A DNA stretch of 64,000 nt, from NCBI GenBank assembly GCA_016286165.1, contig JAEESE010000011.1, forward strand, positions 1-64,000. The letters are read 5' to 3'. Shown piece after piece: positions 25,993 through 60,093 of the stretch (positions within the stretch are counted from its first letter, which is position 1; each line of letters starts with the position of its first letter). The notes under the pieces are model-generated. The model saw nothing but the letters and a program-made list of their open reading frames with translations. It was not told the origin of the DNA and did not search any database. This DNA comes from Bacteroidaceae bacterium. GTDB taxonomy: Bacteria > Bacteroidota > Bacteroidia > Bacteroidales > Bacteroidaceae. Made by a program: the position numbers and the translations under genes.

Positions 25993-26030
25993 TTAAAGTT
26001 TAAAGTTTAAAGTTTAAGGTTTAAAGATTT
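25993..26030. repeat. 7-bp tandem repeat AAAGTTT x ~4
   Basis: aattaaagtttaaagtttaaagtttaaggtttaaag. Confidence 0.8.
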
Positions 26031-26081: not shown

Positions 26082-28883
26082 CTACTTTATCACCGGCTTC
26101 AACTCGTCGGGCGAATCGTTGGTGAACATATTCACAGCCGGGGCATCGTGGATGAAGAGGTTGCGGAGGGCATCGGCCGTGAGGTCGAGTTCGGGCTGGA
26201 AATCTGACGAGAGCATATAGCTGATGATGCTGGAGCGAAGCTGGCGCGCTACGATGCGGTGGTCGAGGTCCGATGTGAGGTCGAAGGTGGTCAGTATGAG
26301 TCGTCCGCTTAGAACACGCGCCTCAAGTAGCATTGCCAGTCGGCGGCTGAGGTGCCACGTGTCGATAGGTTGCACGATAGGCATATAACTGGCTGGGAAT
26401 TCAGCGAGGTTTATGCATTGTGCGCGGTTGGTGAGCTCCCACCATTGCAAGTCCTGCCATTCATCGGTGGGGAAAAGGCGGAAGATGGGATGATTCTTTT
26501 GAATGTAAGCTCCGGTGGTGTGAGGGGGTTTCATCTTGAACCAAGAGGTGTTCCAGAACACAGGCAGGAACCGATGCACTACGTCGGCGCCGTAGCGGAT
26601 ACGGCCACCTGCACACAGTAGGACGTCGTGACCGCCCTTCAACTGCTCTAATGCAGAATCAACGGAGGCCGTTATGAACAACCCCTCATCTTCAACCTTT
26701 TCTCTTTTCCCTTTATTCTTTAACCTCTGCTCTCCATTCTTTAACCTCTGCTCTCCAATAGCCTTTTCTCTCCCGTCATGCGGATAAACCCAGAAGTTCC
26801 AGTGGTTTCGGCCTTTGTCGGCCGCGGTTATCGTCAGTGAGAGTTTTGCAGCCTGTGATACAGAACTGGGCATGAAGGTGATGTCGCTGCCTGGCGTCAC
26901 AGAGCCTTCCTGCAGCACTGCATCGTCGAGGGAAATGGTGTAATGCAGCGTGGTGATAGGGTAGGCAAGTGGGTTGTAGAGCTGCGTACCTATGGTTATA
27001 GTGTCGCACTGCTCGAAGGTGAACCGTGGGAAGCGCGCTAATGGCACCACCTCTGAGCAGAACTCACGCCAGTCGGCGGCGGTGCAGTAGCCTTTCTCGC
27101 GCCAGTGCACGTTGAGCACGCCCACGAGAGCCGTGCCTTGGCCACTGTAGTCGTTGAGGCTTAGCAGTTGAAAACCAGCGTAGTGCGGTGTTCGCAGATG
27201 ACGCTCTATTTCGTATTTGTAAGCCAATGTCTGAAGGCGCCCGCTGGCATAGAGGAAACGTTGTGCCATCTCCGCCATGCCGTTCTTGGCCAATAGGTCA
27301 TGGAATATCTCGAAGTTCTTTGCCTTGTAGGCGCCGGTGTATTGCGGAATCTCACGGAAATCAGGGAAGGCGCACCACTGACCTTGTTCATGACTGATTA
27401 ACGGACCGGTTCCTTCACCGTCCCTGGCGGCGAGATAGTTTCTTGGGTTGGCTATTTGTTGGCTGAAATCATCGTCGCTCGAGGGCCGCCGTTGGTTCCA
27501 TTCCAGACCGCGTGCTCCGCCTTTTACATGGTATTCGGAACCTTTGTCCCATTGCCAGCCTCCGCCCACACTGGCTGTGCAGTATAGACGCGAAGGGTCG
27601 TAAGCGCGCATCTCTTTGACGAATGCCTCGCCCCATTCCACCCAGCGGCCGGCAGGCTCGTTGCCTGCAGCAAGCATCACCAGCGATGGGTGAGCGCCGT
27701 AAGCGTCGATGATGCGTTTGCATTCGTTCACGAGGAACGTGTCGATGGGCATGCCGGCGCCCAGTTTTACGCCGTGGTTAGGCCATGAGGGACCTTCGGG
27801 TTGTAGGTAGAAGCCCAACCTGTCGGCTGCCACAAAGGCGGCCTCGGGCGGGCAGTAGCTATGGAAGCGCATATGGTTGAGGCCGTATTCCTTGCATTTG
27901 CTGAATATTCGCTCCCACGAAGCGGTGTCGGTAGGCGGAAAGCCCGTTTCGGGGAAACAGCAGTTCTCCACTGTGCCGCGTAGGTGCAAGGGCCGTCCGT
28001 TGAGCATAATCTCGCGTCCGCTGATGCTTGCCTGTCGGAAACCGAACGTCAGTTTCACCGGTGTGCCGTGGTAACTGACGGTGGCGGTATAGAGCTGTGG
28101 CCTCTGCTCATTCCATGGCTTGGCGTTAGGCACGTGAACATCGTAGGTCTGTTCGTTCACCATTATATGTACCATGCCTGAAGCGAGGTCGGTGGTCACG
28201 CGGCGACGCCAGATGAGAGGCTCTGCGCGCAGCTCTATGCGCCCGGCCAGTCCGTTCCAGTTGCCTTGTGTCTGGTCTGTCACACTGTGTGAGTCCTGAC
28301 CTACGCACACGTTTTCAATGCCGTTGTACACGGCTATGGCTAATGTGTTCTCCTTGCCGGCTTTGATGAAGGCAGAGATATCGTACTGATGCGGAGCGCT
28401 GAGCGACATCTGATGTCCCACACGATGGCCGTTGACGTATACGGTCGTCTCGATATGTGGTCGTTCAAGATAAAGCGTCACGGGCCGTCCGCGCCACGAG
28501 CGTGGCAGGTTTACAGAACGCACATACCATGCCATGCCCACGTAGTGCTTCCCTGGCGTGAGGAAGAACGGCAGTTTCACCTGGCCGGCGCGACGGTAGG
28601 GCTCCATAAACGGGTTGTGGTAGTAGCTCGAGTCGTAGAGCGAGCCCGTCCAAGGCGTACGTACGTCTATATCGTTGCCAAGGCCGTTGGTGAGCATGGA
28701 GCCGGGCAATGTTATCTTGCCCGTGATAATATCAGGGTTTCGCCACCAGCCTTCGGTGGCGCCGACGTTGGCTGGGTCTATGGTAAACCGCCACTCCCCA
28801 GCAAGCGAGATAATATCAGATGCAGAAGCAAGAACGGACGAAAAGAAGATGTAAAGGATAAATAACGACGACAAACGTTTCAT
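26082..28883 (-). CDS. glycoside hydrolase family 2 protein (beta-galactosidase/glucuronidase-like)
   Basis: Signal peptide MKRLSSLFILYIFFSSVLASA; GH2 sugar-binding domain; LHLRGTVENCCFPETGFPP, NHMRFHSYCPPEAAFVAAD, AAGNEP. Confidence 0.85.
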   Translation of the reverse strand: MKRLSSLFILYIFFSSVLASASDIISLAGEWRFTIDPANVGATEGWWRNPDIITGKITLPGSMLTNGLGNDIDVRTPWTGSLYDSSYYHNPFMEPYRRAGQVKLPFFLTPGKHYVGMAWYVRSVNLPRSWRGRPVTLYLERPHIETTVYVNGHRVGHQMSLSAPHQYDISAFIKAGKENTLAIAVYNGIENVCVGQDSHSVTDQTQGNWNGLAGRIELRAEPLIWRRRVTTDLASGMVHIMVNEQTYDVHVPNAKPWNEQRPQLYTATVSYHGTPVKLTFGFRQASISGREIMLNGRPLHLRGTVENCCFPETGFPPTDTASWERIFSKCKEYGLNHMRFHSYCPPEAAFVAADRLGFYLQPEGPSWPNHGVKLGAGMPIDTFLVNECKRIIDAYGAHPSLVMLAAGNEPAGRWVEWGEAFVKEMRAYDPSRLYCTASVGGGWQWDKGSEYHVKGGARGLEWNQRRPSSDDDFSQQIANPRNYLAARDGEGTGPLISHEQGQWCAFPDFREIPQYTGAYKAKNFEIFHDLLAKNGMAEMAQRFLYASGRLQTLAYKYEIERHLRTPHYAGFQLLSLNDYSGQGTALVGVLNVHWREKGYCTAADWREFCSEVVPLARFPRFTFEQCDTITIGTQLYNPLAYPITTLHYTISLDDAVLQEGSVTPGSDITFMPSSVSQAAKLSLTITAADKGRNHWNFWVYPHDGREKAIGEQRLKNGEQRLKNKGKREKVEDEGLFITASVDSALEQLKGGHDVLLCAGGRIRYGADVVHRFLPVFWNTSWFKMKPPHTTGAYIQKNHPIFRLFPTDEWQDLQWWELTNRAQCINLAEFPASYMPIVQPIDTWHLSRRLAMLLEARVLSGRLILTTFDLTSDLDHRIVARQLRSSIISYMLSSDFQPELDLTADALRNLFIHDAPAVNMFTNDSPDELKPVIK

Positions 28884-37363: not shown

Positions 37364-38023
37364 ATGAAGACTCACGATAACATCAAGTTGCATGGTTTAT
37401 CATACAAACCTGGAAAGTTACTTTTATTTTTCACTTTTCACTTATCACTTTTCATTTTATTCTCCTCCTGCTCCTCCGATACTGAGGACTATGATCCATA
37501 CAGCAACTGGAAGAGCCGCAACGAGGCATGGTTCAAGCAGATAGCAGACTCCGCTCGCCACGGCGGCAGCGAATGGCTGAGCTATAAGTCGGTCCTCAAG
37601 AGCCCCAACTATCAGAGCGGCATCATGGCCGACAGCATTTTCGTGCATATCCTGCATCGTGGTGCAGGCACGTTCTCGCCGGCCTCCAGCGACACCGTCC
37701 GTATCAATTTCCGCGGCACGCTCATGCCCACAAAGGATGTCAGCGGCAACCCGCTCACTACGATATTCACGCAGACCTACTATCAGGACTTCGACCCCGC
37801 TACGGCTGCTCCGCAGAAAGCTTGTGTGTCTTCGTTCACAGCGGGCTTCGCCACAGCACTGCAGCACATGGTAGTTGGCGACGACTGGCTCGTGTACATC
37901 CCTGCCGACCTCTTCTATGGCAAGAATGCCAACGGCGTCATTCCTGCCTACAGCGCAGCCTGCTTCCGCATCAATTTGGTGGGCGTCTATCCTCTTGGCA
38001 CACAGGTGCCTGAATGGAAATAG
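37364..38023 (+). CDS. FKBP-type peptidyl-prolyl isomerase-like lipoprotein
   Basis: Lipobox LFSSCSSD; INFRGTLM..., GFATALQHMVVGDDWLVYIPADLFYG..IPAYSAACFRINLVGV. Confidence 0.78.
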   Translation: MKTHDNIKLHGLSYKPGKLLLFFTFHLSLFILFSSCSSDTEDYDPYSNWKSRNEAWFKQIADSARHGGSEWLSYKSVLKSPNYQSGIMADSIFVHILHRGAGTFSPASSDTVRINFRGTLMPTKDVSGNPLTTIFTQTYYQDFDPATAAPQKACVSSFTAGFATALQHMVVGDDWLVYIPADLFYGKNANGVIPAYSAACFRINLVGVYPLGTQVPEWK

Positions 38024-38040: not shown

Positions 38041-38245
38041 ATGCTTTTCCCACCGGTGACAAAAGCTTTTCCCACCGGTGGGAAACTGTTTTCCCACCAG
38101 TGGGAAACCTTAACACGACTGGTCGTATACTCATTTACGACCAGTCGTGTTTTTATCTTATCCCCAAGCTAATCAGCTTTCATCTCCGGCCTAATCGGCT
38201 TTCATCTCCGGCCTAATAGGCTTTCAACTGCGGCCTAATAGGCCC
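38041..38245. repeat. Compound 22-bp-period palindrome/tandem array
   Basis: TTTTCCCACC at 38045/38067/38089; ACGAC(TG/CA)GTCGT at 38115/38137; CTAAT at 38169/38191/38213/38235; all steps = 22 bp. Confidence 0.95.
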
Positions 38246-38257
38246 GGGGTGGGGCTT

Positions 38258-41200
38258 CTAGTCTTTTCCCAAGATGATATTCACCAGAGCCGTGACGTCG
38301 GCGATTGTTACGCTGCCGTCGTTGTTCACGTCGGCCACACCGCTGGCGGGTGTCTCACTCTTGCCGAGGATGATGTTGACGAGGGCTGTGACGTCGGCGA
38401 TGGTTACGCTGCCGTCGTTGTTCACGTCGCCCACGACGAATTCCTCAAACTCAAACCAGTCAGTGTAGTCGATGGTATAGTAGCACGTCCAGTTCTTACC
38501 CTCCTTCAGATATTTCACCCGTTCCATGGAAATGGTGTTTCCCTCGGATGATGCCTTGCTGATGACGTATATCATGCCAGGTTCCGTCTCTTCGGAGCGG
38601 TCGGGCAGATTCGAGACCATCATCTTCATGGCCGTCTCGTTCAGCCGGTTGTTGTAGCAGGCGAGGAAACGCAACTGGTAGCAGTTGCTGGTTCGCAGGT
38701 CGGTGAGCAGGTTATTGTTGCAGAGGAGCGTCTTCAGATTCGTGTTCTTGGTCAGGCGGAGCTGTGTGAGTCGGTTATACGAGCAGTCCAGCCATTCCAG
38801 TCCGGTGAAGTATTCTATGCCTGTGAGGTCCTCGATGTCCCTCTGGTGGAGGTTCATTTGGGTTTTGTCCTGAGCCTCGGTATAGAGCAGGAAGCCATCG
38901 CCGTCGGGATCATAGTTTTCAGCGACGAAAGAGCGGAAGTTGTCATCGGGGAAGTTGGTGGTGTTGATCTCGATGCCTGCTTCGAATTGGTGGAAGGTGC
39001 CGTCGCCGGCTTGATACATCAGTTTCCATCCCTTCTGATAGGCAGCTGTGATGTGTTGTATGTCAGGCGTTACATTCCCCTCGTTGTTACTTCCCACATG
39101 AAAGATGAGTATGGTGTTTGTCGAGCCATCGCCTTCGGGAAGACTGCTGATCATGTTTGTGATACCCTCCGCAGTGAGTTGGTTTTCCATGATGTCGATG
39201 TTCTGCAGACCAGTCAATCCAGTAAAGTCGGCCGTTTCCAGGGCATTGCCATTGACATAGACCCTCTCCAAGGCGAAGAGGTGCGTGATGCCTGTGAGGT
39301 CGGTAACGCCTTGGTTGTTGAGCGAAAGGTCGGAGATGTCCTCCAACTCATCGTTTGTCAGCCACCAGTCACCGTCCTTGTCAATAGAGCTGCCATGCAG
39401 GTAGTTGCGGACAATCTCGTTAGGGAAGTTGGCAGCGTTGATGGCTATGCCATCACGTGGGCAGGAGATGGTGACTTGGCTGGTTGCAATGGTGTATGTG
39501 GAGCCTGAGCGTGTGCAGACATTGTGGTTGAAGAAGTAGCCGTCAACTAGGCGAGGTCTTGTGCCAGAGTTATCAGTAACCTCGATTGTGGTGTCTTCGG
39601 GTCGGACGAGCGCATGCAGATTGGCAACACTTGCTGTCGGGCCGTTGGCCAGTACCTTGGTATTGCTACCCTCCAGGGTGAGGGAGGCATGGTATGTGGT
39701 TACTTGGCCTACGCGCGGAACATAATCTTCAGTAGAGAGTCCAAAGATGCCGTAGCCCTCTGTTCCTGTATTTTGGGCATTCAAAATGGCGCCGCCGGTG
39801 ACGAAGAGCGTGTCACCATTGAGACGAATGCTGCAGATGTTGGACTTTGCCGTAAGCCTGCCTGACCCCGTGATGGTGGTTTTCTTGCTGAGCAGGATGG
39901 CTTCATTGCCTATCACGTTAATCGTGTTGGTGCCGATGAGATTGATGGTCAGCCCGTCAATCTGACTCTTCAGACCGATGGCATCGACAATTGCGTTGCT
40001 AGTGATGGTGGCCCCGTTTAGCGTAAGTGTGTTGGTCTGTTCGTCGAAGGAGCCTGCACCCGATACGCCAGCAATGGCGGTGAGGTCACCGGCACTGTCA
40101 GAGGTTACTTGTGTGCCACGGAGCCATAGTTTGTAGGCAACGGTGCCGCCAGCATAGTCCTGCCACGAGTTGCCTGTGGTGGTGTACTGGGGGTTCCATC
40201 CCTTCGCCCTCAAGGCGCTGACTGTGGCAGGCGACATCTCGTTGCCCTCGGTGGCAAGGCCCTGATAGTAGGCACGCACGTTGCAGGTTGTGGCCAGCGG
40301 CGGCAGGGCCTGGGCAATGGCGCGCATGGCGTCGTTCTTCAGCTGGTTGCCGTAGATGCACAGACTCTTCAGCAGCTGGTTGTGCGTCAGGTCGAGCGCA
40401 GTGAGCTGGTTCTTCTCCACATACAGATACCTGAGGTTTTCGTTGTGTGTCAGGTCGAGGGTCGTCAGGCTGTTACCGCCGCATCTGAGGTCTGCCAGCA
40501 TGGGGAACATACTGACGTCGAGGGTTGTAAACTGGTTGTTGCTGCAGTCGAAGTTGCGCAGGTTGGTCAGGCTGCCGAGGCCGTAGATCTGGGTCAGCTG
40601 ATTGTCCTGGCACTGCAGTTCGCGCAGTTTGGGGTTCTCGCTGACGTTGAGATTGGTCAGGTGGTTGTCATCGCAGAAGAGACGCTGCAGTTCGGTGCAG
40701 CCGCGCACGTCGATGCTGGTGAGGCCGCAGCTATTGCCATACAACGTTTCCAGATGGGGGAACTGCGAGGCATCAAACCAGGTGACGCCTTCGTTATTGT
40801 AGAATTGAATCTCACGCAGGTTCGACAGGTCCAGCACCACCTCGCTCAGTCCAGCATCGGTCAGGTTGTTTTTGGAGACATCCAAGTAAACCAGGTTCCT
40901 CAGGTACTGTATGCCCTCAAGCGAGGCGATGTTCTTTTCCGACACGTAGAGTTCTGTGATGCCGTCAATCTCCTCCTGCGTCAGCAGGGCATCTGCACCA
41001 TAGCTTTGATCCAACAGGTAGTTGCGGAACTTCTGGTCGGGGAAGTTGTACTCGTTGATGCCTATGCCGAAGTCGCCAGTGGTAATCTCGACCCACATCC
41101 ACGCCCCGTTGCCAGCATGGTATTTGTATCGCACCTTGCTGACATCGCTGGCGCCGCCCTCGTCAACGAGCAGATATTCGCCCAGCATCGTCGGGTTGTT

Positions 41201-42538
41201 GATCGTTGTCATAGTTTGACGCCACACTGTCATGTCGGAAATGGAGTCGCAGTTGACCTCGTTGTTCAGCCGCACGTAGGTCTTCCCGTCTATCTTCGTG
41301 GCCTGGCCCTCAATGTACTGAACAGGTACGCACAGGGTGTGGCATACGGTGCCCGTAACGTCGATGGCAAACAGCAGATTACCGTGTATACTAATAGTTT
41401 TGAGTGCAGGGTTGTGCGACACATTGAGCGTGGTCAGATCGTTGTACTTGCAGCTCAACAATTCCAGATTGGTGAATCTTGATACATCGAGCGTAGTCAG
41501 GTTGCAATCTTCACAACGTAGGGTTGTTGTCTTCTCGGGATTCGGAATGTTGAGGATGAACTCTTCTATAATGTCTGTGTAACTGCAGTCAAAGCTATGA
41601 ACAGCTCCGTTGCCGGCCTGCGACCACTCGATGCCGTTTACAGGAGAATAGGAGCAATCGATATGTTTGTATTCATTGTCGCGCAGGTCGAGCGTGTGAA
41701 TCTGGGTTTTGTAGCAATAAATGGAAGGCTTGTATGATAAATTTGAATCCATGTCCGGCAGGAACAGCGCGCTCAGCAGCGGGTTATCGTTGCAGCGGAG
41801 TACTTCAAGTCGAGGGGTAGTAACATTCAGAGCATCTATCTGATTGCTGGAGCAGTCTAAATCCCGCAGGAGCATGCTGTCGCCTGTATAGAGACTGGTC
41901 AACTGATTCTCGCTGCAGTGCAAGGTGGTCAACGCCGTGCAGCCCCTCACATTGAGGTTGGTGAGCTGGTTCCGCTGGCAAGTCAGAGTCGTCAGTTCCG
42001 TGCAACCTGACACGTTGAGCGAGGTGAGTTTGTTCTCCCTGCAATCCACCGACTCCAGTTTGACACAGCCCGAGAGGTTAAGCGAAGTGAGCTGGCTCTC
42101 CTGACACTCCACCGACTTCAGCTTGGCACAGCCCGAGAGGTTGAGCGATTCAAGTTGTTTGCCCACCGCTTCGACCTCTGTAACATCCATTCCTGAGAGG
42201 TCGAGCGTCGTCAGGTCGTTAGAATAGACCTTTATCTTCAACCCCCAAGTACCAGTCTCGCTCTTGGCGAAGTATCGGATGCCTTCTACGCTTTGGCAAC
42301 CAGTATTGAGGAGGATGGTCACAACTCTCTTGCGCTCATAGTCCGACAGCTTGCCGTCGGCGCCCACTAAGTCCCACCTGCCATCGCTTTTATGATACTC
42401 CATCGTGTTCAGGATGTAGTTGCGGAACACGGGGTCTGGGAAGTGTGCTTCGTCAATGGGAATGGATTCGGCGAAAATGCTTACGTTTGCTGTCAGCCCT
42501 GCGAGGGCGAGCACGAATGCAACAAATCTCTTCTTCAT
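38258..42538 (-). CDS. secreted leucine-rich-repeat protein with C-terminal dockerin-like repeats
   Basis: Signal peptide; many LxxLxCxxNxLTxLxxS repeats; GDVNNDGSVTIADVTALVNIILGK..ADVNNDGSVTIADVTALVNIILGK. Confidence 0.88.
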   Translation of the reverse strand: MKKRFVAFVLALAGLTANVSIFAESIPIDEAHFPDPVFRNYILNTMEYHKSDGRWDLVGADGKLSDYERKRVVTILLNTGCQSVEGIRYFAKSETGTWGLKIKVYSNDLTTLDLSGMDVTEVEAVGKQLESLNLSGCAKLKSVECQESQLTSLNLSGCVKLESVDCRENKLTSLNVSGCTELTTLTCQRNQLTNLNVRGCTALTTLHCSENQLTSLYTGDSMLLRDLDCSSNQIDALNVTTPRLEVLRCNDNPLLSALFLPDMDSNLSYKPSIYCYKTQIHTLDLRDNEYKHIDCSYSPVNGIEWSQAGNGAVHSFDCSYTDIIEEFILNIPNPEKTTTLRCEDCNLTTLDVSRFTNLELLSCKYNDLTTLNVSHNPALKTISIHGNLLFAIDVTGTVCHTLCVPVQYIEGQATKIDGKTYVRLNNEVNCDSISDMTVWRQTMTTINNPTMLGEYLLVDEGGASDVSKVRYKYHAGNGAWMWVEITTGDFGIGINEYNFPDQKFRNYLLDQSYGADALLTQEEIDGITELYVSEKNIASLEGIQYLRNLVYLDVSKNNLTDAGLSEVVLDLSNLREIQFYNNEGVTWFDASQFPHLETLYGNSCGLTSIDVRGCTELQRLFCDDNHLTNLNVSENPKLRELQCQDNQLTQIYGLGSLTNLRNFDCSNNQFTTLDVSMFPMLADLRCGGNSLTTLDLTHNENLRYLYVEKNQLTALDLTHNQLLKSLCIYGNQLKNDAMRAIAQALPPLATTCNVRAYYQGLATEGNEMSPATVSALRAKGWNPQYTTTGNSWQDYAGGTVAYKLWLRGTQVTSDSAGDLTAIAGVSGAGSFDEQTNTLTLNGATITSNAIVDAIGLKSQIDGLTINLIGTNTINVIGNEAILLSKKTTITGSGRLTAKSNICSIRLNGDTLFVTGGAILNAQNTGTEGYGIFGLSTEDYVPRVGQVTTYHASLTLEGSNTKVLANGPTASVANLHALVRPEDTTIEVTDNSGTRPRLVDGYFFNHNVCTRSGSTYTIATSQVTISCPRDGIAINAANFPNEIVRNYLHGSSIDKDGDWWLTNDELEDISDLSLNNQGVTDLTGITHLFALERVYVNGNALETADFTGLTGLQNIDIMENQLTAEGITNMISSLPEGDGSTNTILIFHVGSNNEGNVTPDIQHITAAYQKGWKLMYQAGDGTFHQFEAGIEINTTNFPDDNFRSFVAENYDPDGDGFLLYTEAQDKTQMNLHQRDIEDLTGIEYFTGLEWLDCSYNRLTQLRLTKNTNLKTLLCNNNLLTDLRTSNCYQLRFLACYNNRLNETAMKMMVSNLPDRSEETEPGMIYVISKASSEGNTISMERVKYLKEGKNWTCYYTIDYTDWFEFEEFVVGDVNNDGSVTIADVTALVNIILGKSETPASGVADVNNDGSVTIADVTALVNIILGKD

Positions 42539-58541: not shown

Positions 58542-58613
58542 ATTATGGAATGTGAAAGAGGCGGCCTCAATCACTGATTAAAAAGGTCTGAAATGTTTAT
58601 TTTCTAAGCCCAG

Positions 58614-58785
58614 CCTAAGAGCCAGATTAGGTTGGCCTAAGAGCCTGATTAGGCTGGCCTAAATTGCTTGTAAACCCGGCCTTGTTTTTTGTGCTACCGT
58701 ACGTGCAGTTTGTTATGACCGTTCGTGAAGGCTTGTATGACCGTTCATGAAGGCTTGTATGACCGTTCGTGTTGATAGATGTGAC
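58614..58785. repeat. Two 22-bp-period arrays in the queA upstream / DUF2027 downstream region
   Basis: CCTAA at 58614/58636/58658; TATGACCGTTCRTG at 58714/58736/58758 plus diverged copy TGCTACCGTACGTG at 58692; all within-array steps = 22 bp. Confidence 0.92.
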
Positions 58786-60093
58786 CTAAAGGATGGTAAC
58801 CATAGTGGCACCGAAGGCATACTTCTGGAAAGGAGCGTCTTCGTAAGTGCAGGTCCGGTAGCGGCGTGTGAGTTCTTTGATTAGGGCTTCGCGCAGGACA
58901 TCGTCGTTCTTATCGTGGATGAAAACGATACGAAGGCCTTTCCTACGAATGTTGCGTTCCATCATGATGCGGAACTCTGTCAACTGCGTGTTGAGCAAAA
59001 CCGTTGGCGAGAGGCCTTCGGTGTTGTCGAGAAGAGCGTTTATGTGTAGGTCTACCTCAATCAGGTCTTTGGGAGGTGCGGCCATCTGTCGCGAGCGTCG
59101 TTGCTGTTCGGCCATGGCTGCCAACTCCTTGGCTTTCAAGGCTTGCTGCTCGGCTTTGGCTGCCATCTCCTTGGCTCGTGCCTGTTGCTCGGCTTTGAGC
59201 TGACGCTTTGCGGCCTTGAGTGCTTCGCGCTCTTCCTCGCGTGTGCGCTGTGGTATTATAGGTGTATCGTTGTCGAACCTGTTGTTGGGGTGGGGGAGGA
59301 CGGGTTCTACGTCATCGTTTGTAGGCCTGTCGTCGGGCTCTTCGGCCGTTAAAGTGTTGCTGCGCAAGGCATCACGCACGCTTTCGGGCTCCACGAAAAT
59401 CTGACGTATGGGACGGTCGTCGCGGACAATGTCGTAGACTAAGGCTGGTTCGCGGAAGAAAGGTGAAGGCTGGAACACATGCAATTTGTAGAACTTCACT
59501 ACGTCAAGCCTTAGTTCAACGCCCACAGCGGGCTTGAGCATGTAGGGCTTGTCCTGTTTCCAAGCGATGAGTTGCACGCTCAGGCGCTCCAGGTCATTGA
59601 GGCTTGAACGCTCGAAAGTGTCGACAAGCTGCTTGGTGTTCGGCTCCAACAGGCCTTGCCAGCGTAGGTGCCAGGCGGCGCCTTCATTGTTGGCAAAGAC
59701 GACGTTGACGTAGTAGTTTGAGTCGTTGACGATGTAAGCCTCAAAGCGCGTTGTGGAAAGCTCACGCGAGTTCTCGGGGACGAAAGCCAGACAAACATTC
59801 AACAGGTCGCCGCCTTTGCGTTCCTGAGGCTTGGGCTGAAAGGTCGTTGGGCGTGCCGAGGGGTCGTCGTCGACATCGTCTTCGAGGAAGCGCACACGAG
59901 GTTTGGGCGCCTCTTCCTTCTTCTTAACTTCGAAATTATTGGCGTTGGTTTCAATCACCACTACCTGCGAACGGAGCATAGGAACGGCGAAGCCGTCCAA
60001 GTCTTCCACGAGCACAATATCCTTGCCCTGGAAACCCTTGACGATACCACCTCCCACTTCATTCAGAAATCTAACTTTATCGCCTATTTTCAT
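58786..60093 (-). CDS. DUF2027/Smr-domain protein
   Basis: Start set at MKIGDKVRFLNEVGGGIVKGFQGKDIVLVEDLDGFAVP; C-term VDLHINALLD...RIVFIHDKNDDVLREALIKEL. Confidence 0.82.
   Translation of the reverse strand: MKIGDKVRFLNEVGGGIVKGFQGKDIVLVEDLDGFAVPMLRSQVVVIETNANNFEVKKKEEAPKPRVRFLEDDVDDDPSARPTTFQPKPQERKGGDLLNVCLAFVPENSRELSTTRFEAYIVNDSNYYVNVVFANNEGAAWHLRWQGLLEPNTKQLVDTFERSSLNDLERLSVQLIAWKQDKPYMLKPAVGVELRLDVVKFYKLHVFQPSPFFREPALVYDIVRDDRPIRQIFVEPESVRDALRSNTLTAEEPDDRPTNDDVEPVLPHPNNRFDNDTPIIPQRTREEEREALKAAKRQLKAEQQARAKEMAAKAEQQALKAKELAAMAEQQRRSRQMAAPPKDLIEVDLHINALLDNTEGLSPTVLLNTQLTEFRIMMERNIRRKGLRIVFIHDKNDDVLREALIKELTRRYRTCTYEDAPFQKYAFGATMVTIL

Follow-up and report, generated by a model that had tools for sequence, protein, structure and literature searches.

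Intergenic DNA of an uncultured Prevotellaceae carries arrays of short palindromes on a 22-bp grid, and within these arrays unrelated palindromes share one phase. Judged by their spacing, variation and position, the arrays are probably rows of phased dyad sites, set two helical turns apart at the ends of genes, for putative DNA-binding proteins that act as dimers.

In the window, i.e. the whole analysed stretch of 64,000 nucleotides, a compound array (38041–38245) sits between a convergent FKBP-type gene (stop 38023) and an LRR gene (stop 38258). The layout of this array and of a second compound array in the window is given below; sites and repeat units carry no strand.

37364–38023, plus strand: FKBP-type lipoprotein gene; stop codon about 22 bp ahead of the first F1 site
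38046–38063, no strand: F1 site 1, TTTCCCACCGGTGACAAA; centre 38054.5, right arm degraded
38068–38085, no strand: F1 site 2, TTTCCCACCGGTGGGAAA; centre 38076.5
38090–38107, no strand: F1 site 3, TTTCCCACCAGTGGGAAA; centre 38098.5
38115–38126, no strand: F2 site 1, ACGACTGGTCGT; centre 38120.5, on the F1 grid
38137–38148, no strand: F2 site 2, ACGACCAGTCGT; centre 38142.5, on the F1 grid
38160–38246, no strand: four 22-bp F3-like units, CCGGCCTAAT; CTAAT starts at 38169, 38191, 38213 and 38235
38258–42538, minus strand: LRR protein gene; gene end 12 bp past the last array unit
58583–58799, no strand: second compound array; F3 units, GCCTAANNGCCNGATTAGGC, then three F2 sites, ATGACCGTTCGTG

The initial annotation of this DNA had described three unrelated repeats locked to a period of 22 bp; the pattern is real and more extensive than described there. 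Its coordinates were right, both for TTTT (38045, 38067 and 38089) and for the four CTAAT starts. The two unrelated palindromes F1 and F2 do lie on one 22-bp grid, with centres from 38054.5 to 38142.5, and the second F2 site is the exact reverse complement of the first. The third set keeps the period (centres 38165.5, 38187.5, 38209.5 and 38231.5; step 22 bp) but not the common phase, as it lies +1 bp off the grid of F1 and F2. It consists of half-degraded F3 sites (ATTAGGCCGGCCTAAT) in which the right half, GGCCTAAT, is retained. Between 38024 and 38257 the best lag is 22, with 135 matches out of 212 versus 53.7 ± 6.3 for base-shuffled sequence (z = 12.9). Tandem, partly palindromic repeats resemble CRISPR, but here the units abut at 22 bp with neither spacers nor a constant repeat, and the earlier exclusion of CRISPR holds. 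The second array also steps by 22 bp, except for one step of 65. The same array was sought downstream of the FKBP-type gene in other genomes; in L069, the nearest named relative, a different gene lies directly next. At the C-terminus of the LRR protein stand two near-identical DVNNDGSVTIADVTALVNIILGK repeats that resemble a dockerin-type domain. Elsewhere in the window (26715–26757) there is a perfect direct duplication of 21 bp, ATTCTTTAACCTCTGCTCTCC, outside the 22-bp system.

A genome-wide excess at lag 22, which the initial annotation had named as its test, was strong: 1.24 Mb of the 3.45-Mb assembly (G000) contained 67 lag-22 arrays, or 54/Mb, as compared with a mean of 1.6/Mb for the control lags 17, 19, 20, 23, 25, 26 and 29. 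Extrapolation of this density to the assembly gives a genome total of perhaps 180–190 arrays. In the TRF output, 22 was the most frequent tandem period (79 rows), with 32 rows for period 21 and 5 for period 23. The lag scan had its maximum at 22 and harmonics at 44 and 66. Its further peaks at 7, 14, 21 and 28 are due to heptamer repeats, which lie mostly between tandem genes and are depleted between convergent ones. Such heptamer and octamer tandem repeats are a separate intergenic class with these same periods; they were seen in the window at 25993, 35115, 37420 and 53912 as well as genome-wide.

At least five palindrome families build the arrays:

Family F1: TTTCCCACCGGTGGGAAA type
Family F2: ACGACCGGTCGT type
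Family F3: ATTAGGCCGGCCTAAT
Family F4: CTCTATAGAG
Family F5: AACCCTTAAGGGTT

We scanned all 1.24 Mb of sampled DNA for the five families, whatever the position. Of the 325 same-family site pairs lying within 140 bp of each other, 313 had a spacing divisible by 22. For pairs of different families this was true of 73 out of 112, and a further 27 were off by one base in either direction. Because these pairwise counts are not independent, we also counted neighbouring sites of different families 16–120 bp apart: 20 of these 23 distances deviated by at most 1 bp from a multiple of 22 (binomial p about 6e-15, or about 2e-13 with two set aside for the window). The longest row with three families (F2, F3 and F4) extends over at least 15 slots at C36:123.9 kb (L035:3873–4256). 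When the gap between F1 palindromes was left free over 2–16 bases, all 15 pairs in the whole genome were spaced exactly 22 bp, with different linkers; the same free-gap pattern gave no hit in 117 genomes of other genera in the order. Four slots are the commonest size, for arrays (22/60), for F2 blocks (18/39) and for most arrays of the congener G012. The middle of the linker is G/C-rich (67–75% GC versus 41% for intergenic DNA) and the flanks are A/T-rich in all four families examined, a sign of a common architecture. In G012 and in a further congener, G003, one slot is often vacant, giving a 44-bp step with the phase kept, as if a degraded site still held its place. Three F2 arrays (L066:10681–10812, L031:8291 and L020:8689–8944) are flanked by a recurring GGTGGNNCACC...GGTGGGACACCT element. 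Another element beside F2 arrays, GGGTGGGACACCT, had few copies, not clearly more than the control.

Two congeners, G012 and G023, share 95% identity across 15.8 kb and have arrays at corresponding places. We chose 15 array pairs from the listed matches, pairing them by similarity and about half of them also by synteny. The spacing was unchanged in these orthologous arrays. Differences numbered 0/48 in interior cores, 11/147 in flanking arm bases and 28/147 (19%) in mid-linkers, where core positions fixed by the search pattern were excluded (cores versus linkers, Fisher p = 2e-4). This contrast between core and linker is the least firm of the main results.

The main rival to protein sites is a functionless 22-bp minisatellite that grows by duplication in fixed steps, either through slippage or through a staggered-cut enzyme copying 22 bp. 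Some direct duplication of 22 bp does take place. Homogeneous runs of three to four exact copies occur, and 15 of 85 adjacent F2 pairs are identical; among the 70 non-identical pairs direct identity is raised (276 versus 243.8 shuffled), as expected from some direct duplication. Such identical neighbours in direct orientation show that simple copying of 22 bp contributes to the arrays as well. A length-measuring duplication alone, one of the readings first offered, is nevertheless insufficient: unrelated palindromes share one phase, separate loci have the F1 palindrome at the exact 22-bp step but with differing linkers, the cores are kept in the congeners while the linkers change, and the modal size is four slots rather than two. 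We consider this explanation unlikely.

With respect to genes, which we called approximately with our own hexamer-trained models, 64 of the 67 arrays are intergenic. Among intergenic regions of at least 150 bp, arrays were present in 18/48 convergent, 23/141 tandem and 4/61 divergent ones (convergent versus divergent p = 8e-5; convergent versus tandem p = 0.004). In G012 many arrays begin within 50 bp of a stop codon, and array orientation agrees with transcription at 11 of 13 tandem loci, but at 6 of only 8 with a clear orientation, too few to establish a trend. The preference for 3' ends suggests that the arrays act as boundaries or roadblocks, but a selfish or architectural element that avoids promoters would give the same picture.

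A position at gene 3' ends is also what tandem RNA hairpins in 3' UTRs, selected for their structure as terminators or stability elements, would occupy. Some arrays can form strong RNA folds and resemble terminators; the window array has a folding z of -9.6 and four terminator-like sites versus 0.5 expected. Since it folds well and its F2 units, exact reverse complements of each other, are followed by a T-run, this particular array may double as a terminator, but not as a general rule. The variation within the arrays speaks against selection on RNA structure. The two arms vary independently across 105 distinct F2 units, with positions 2, 4 and 5 paired in 52, 71 and 56 units versus 55.4, 66.9 and 61.9 expected. 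The same independence was found in 77 units of the GGTTAACC family of G012, and also for F1 and F3. Compensation between adjacent F2 units was absent (240 versus 240.1 shuffled, 70 non-identical pairs). As arms vary independently and neighbours do not compensate, RNA hairpins do not appear to be under selection. The structured 3' UTR considered in the initial annotation thus agrees with the arrays in position and disagrees in variation. No Rfam family came near its gathering score, the best hits being eukaryotic miRNA models with 34 bits where 80 are needed. Terminator-like sites were equally common in intergenic regions with and without arrays, and we rejected the idea that arrays substitute for intrinsic terminators. 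Overall, we regard the RNA explanation as quite improbable. The base preferences of F2 are equal on both sides (position 4 A/T 80:25; position 6 C in 94 of 105), so that each palindrome consists of two independent half-sites with equal preferences, as in sites of dimeric proteins.

REP/BIME-like selfish palindromes spread by a transposase (RAYT) resemble the arrays in being high-copy, extragenic (64/67 intergenic here, at 54/Mb), palindromic, often clustered at 3' ends and species-specific in sequence, but they are very unlikely to account for them: a PF01797 profile search of G000 (92% complete) gave no match to a Y1 transposase while the controls matched, REPs are single hairpin units without a strict 22-bp grid across unrelated palindromes, the linkers here vary from array to array, and the arms vary independently, without the compensatory changes of a stem-loop.

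Plasmid iterons are phased repeats of 17–22 bp. They hold multiple protein sites in phase with the helix, about two turns from one another, and these are cooperatively bound; the arrays have a 22-bp phase, and proteins would bind them in a similar way. Iterons differ in being direct repeats that adjoin a rep gene or an origin, whereas we observed dyads dispersed over intergenic loci at about 54 per Mb, at gene ends. A phage or plasmid origin was considered and rejected. The only viral contigs with the exact F2 pair pattern were two of high GC content that carry dense, unrelated CGACCGGTCG repeats, GGTTAACC pairs were absent from viral contigs, and BLAST gave no phage match and only short, chance-level matches to plasmids.

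The Porphyromonas repeats of about 22 bp mentioned in the initial annotation are probably BrickBuilt of Porphyromonas gingivalis, a single 23-nt minisatellite sequence within a MITE with leader and tail, present in 19 copies (PMC4596501). It is likewise an intergenic tandem repeat without spacers from the same order, but a different thing: the arrays have a period of 22, many sequences from at least five unrelated families in one genome, and no common ends. The other nearest published repeat is PINSR of Prevotella intermedia/nigrescens, a 188-bp repeat with about 180 intergenic copies per genome that is clade-specific within Prevotella and has neither coding sequence nor terminal inverted repeats (PMC4755523). 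The arrays are similar in all these respects, including the copy number. PINSR was published as a single 188-bp repeat without mention of a 22-bp grid (PMC4755523). Its length is near 8.5 x 22 and, compared by description only, it might be a local Prevotella form of the arrays. We found no published description of 22-bp palindrome arrays in the open-access literature. None of REP/RAYT, CRISPR, BrickBuilt-type minisatellites and known RNA families matches the arrays. That each species has its own palindromes at one constant spacing points to an unrecognised DNA-binding system at gene ends.

The period is shared by relatives, while the palindromes are not. Genomes of the same genus have a lag-22 peak too (15 arrays in 336 kb, or 45/Mb), with different palindromes in each. 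Full F1 sites are found in G000, G005 and G017. In G003 F1 is altered symmetrically in both arms, TTTCCAACCGGTTGGAAA, in 11 copies, some of them 44 bp apart, and arrays of GGTTAACC are restricted to G012 and G023 among 37 genomes. The cultured relatives Segatella maculosa (9 arrays per 100 kb) and Alloprevotella tannerae (6 per 100 kb) have the 22-bp period with other palindromes; Hallella colorans has 2 arrays per 100 kb. At GlyRS-anchored loci we counted 54/Mb in Prevotellaceae plus Bacteroides and 2.5/Mb in other Bacteroidales, and 0 arrays at such loci from other Bacteroidota and other families of the order. Palindromic 22-bp arrays were also present in small samples of three further species, with 3 in 100 kb of Bacteroides finegoldii (GAAACTNNAGTTTC), 1 in 50 kb of Phocaeicola massiliensis (GGACTGTACAGTCC) and 2 in 100 kb of Parabacteroides distasonis. 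The PLSDB "plasmids" of these three species (L257–L261) carry housekeeping genes and look like pieces of chromosome; a glycyl-tRNA ligase is present in related records.

Based on these results we propose the following model. Each array would be an intergenic row of dyad sites, mostly with four 22-bp slots and with a preference for the 3' ends of genes, and each slot would bind one homodimer of a sequence-specific DNA-binding protein. As 22 bp is about two helical turns, neighbouring dimers would sit almost on one side of the DNA and be able to touch. Such contacts would make binding cooperative, and the spacing would then be what selection fixes. A row of dimeric-protein sites would be expected to show arms that vary independently with equal preferences, cores that are conserved, linkers that are free to change and a fixed spacing, and of the readings offered in the initial annotation the phased dimeric sites are the one that fits. 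Different families in one genome could be the sites of different, mutually compatible proteins or of one variable family; compatibility would allow mixed palindromes to share one row and grid. Unrelated palindromes on one grid imply either that different dimers touch each other or that a single scaffold dictates the spacing. Site sequences would shift between species as the specificity of the protein shifts. A survey of 784 predicted proteins, covering a third of the genome, revealed no conspicuously expanded family of DNA-binding proteins. As for the effect, our guess is a nucleoprotein block at gene ends, acting as a transcription boundary or roadblock, or as a nucleoid anchor.

More tentatively, the arrays could belong to a system common to Bacteroidaceae and Prevotellaceae, in which putative, fast-diversifying dimeric proteins form mixed filaments at the ends of genes, on a lattice with a fixed step of 22 bp. 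Geometry and not sequence would be the conserved trait, so that each species would use new words on the same ruler. In that case, many gene ends in a major group of gut and oral bacteria would be tagged with a protein lattice without a described counterpart, the sequence of which turns over between species at constant geometry. It would imply that chromosomal DNA-binding proteins include a class not recognised before, and the lattice may bear on the insulation of convergent genes in this group.
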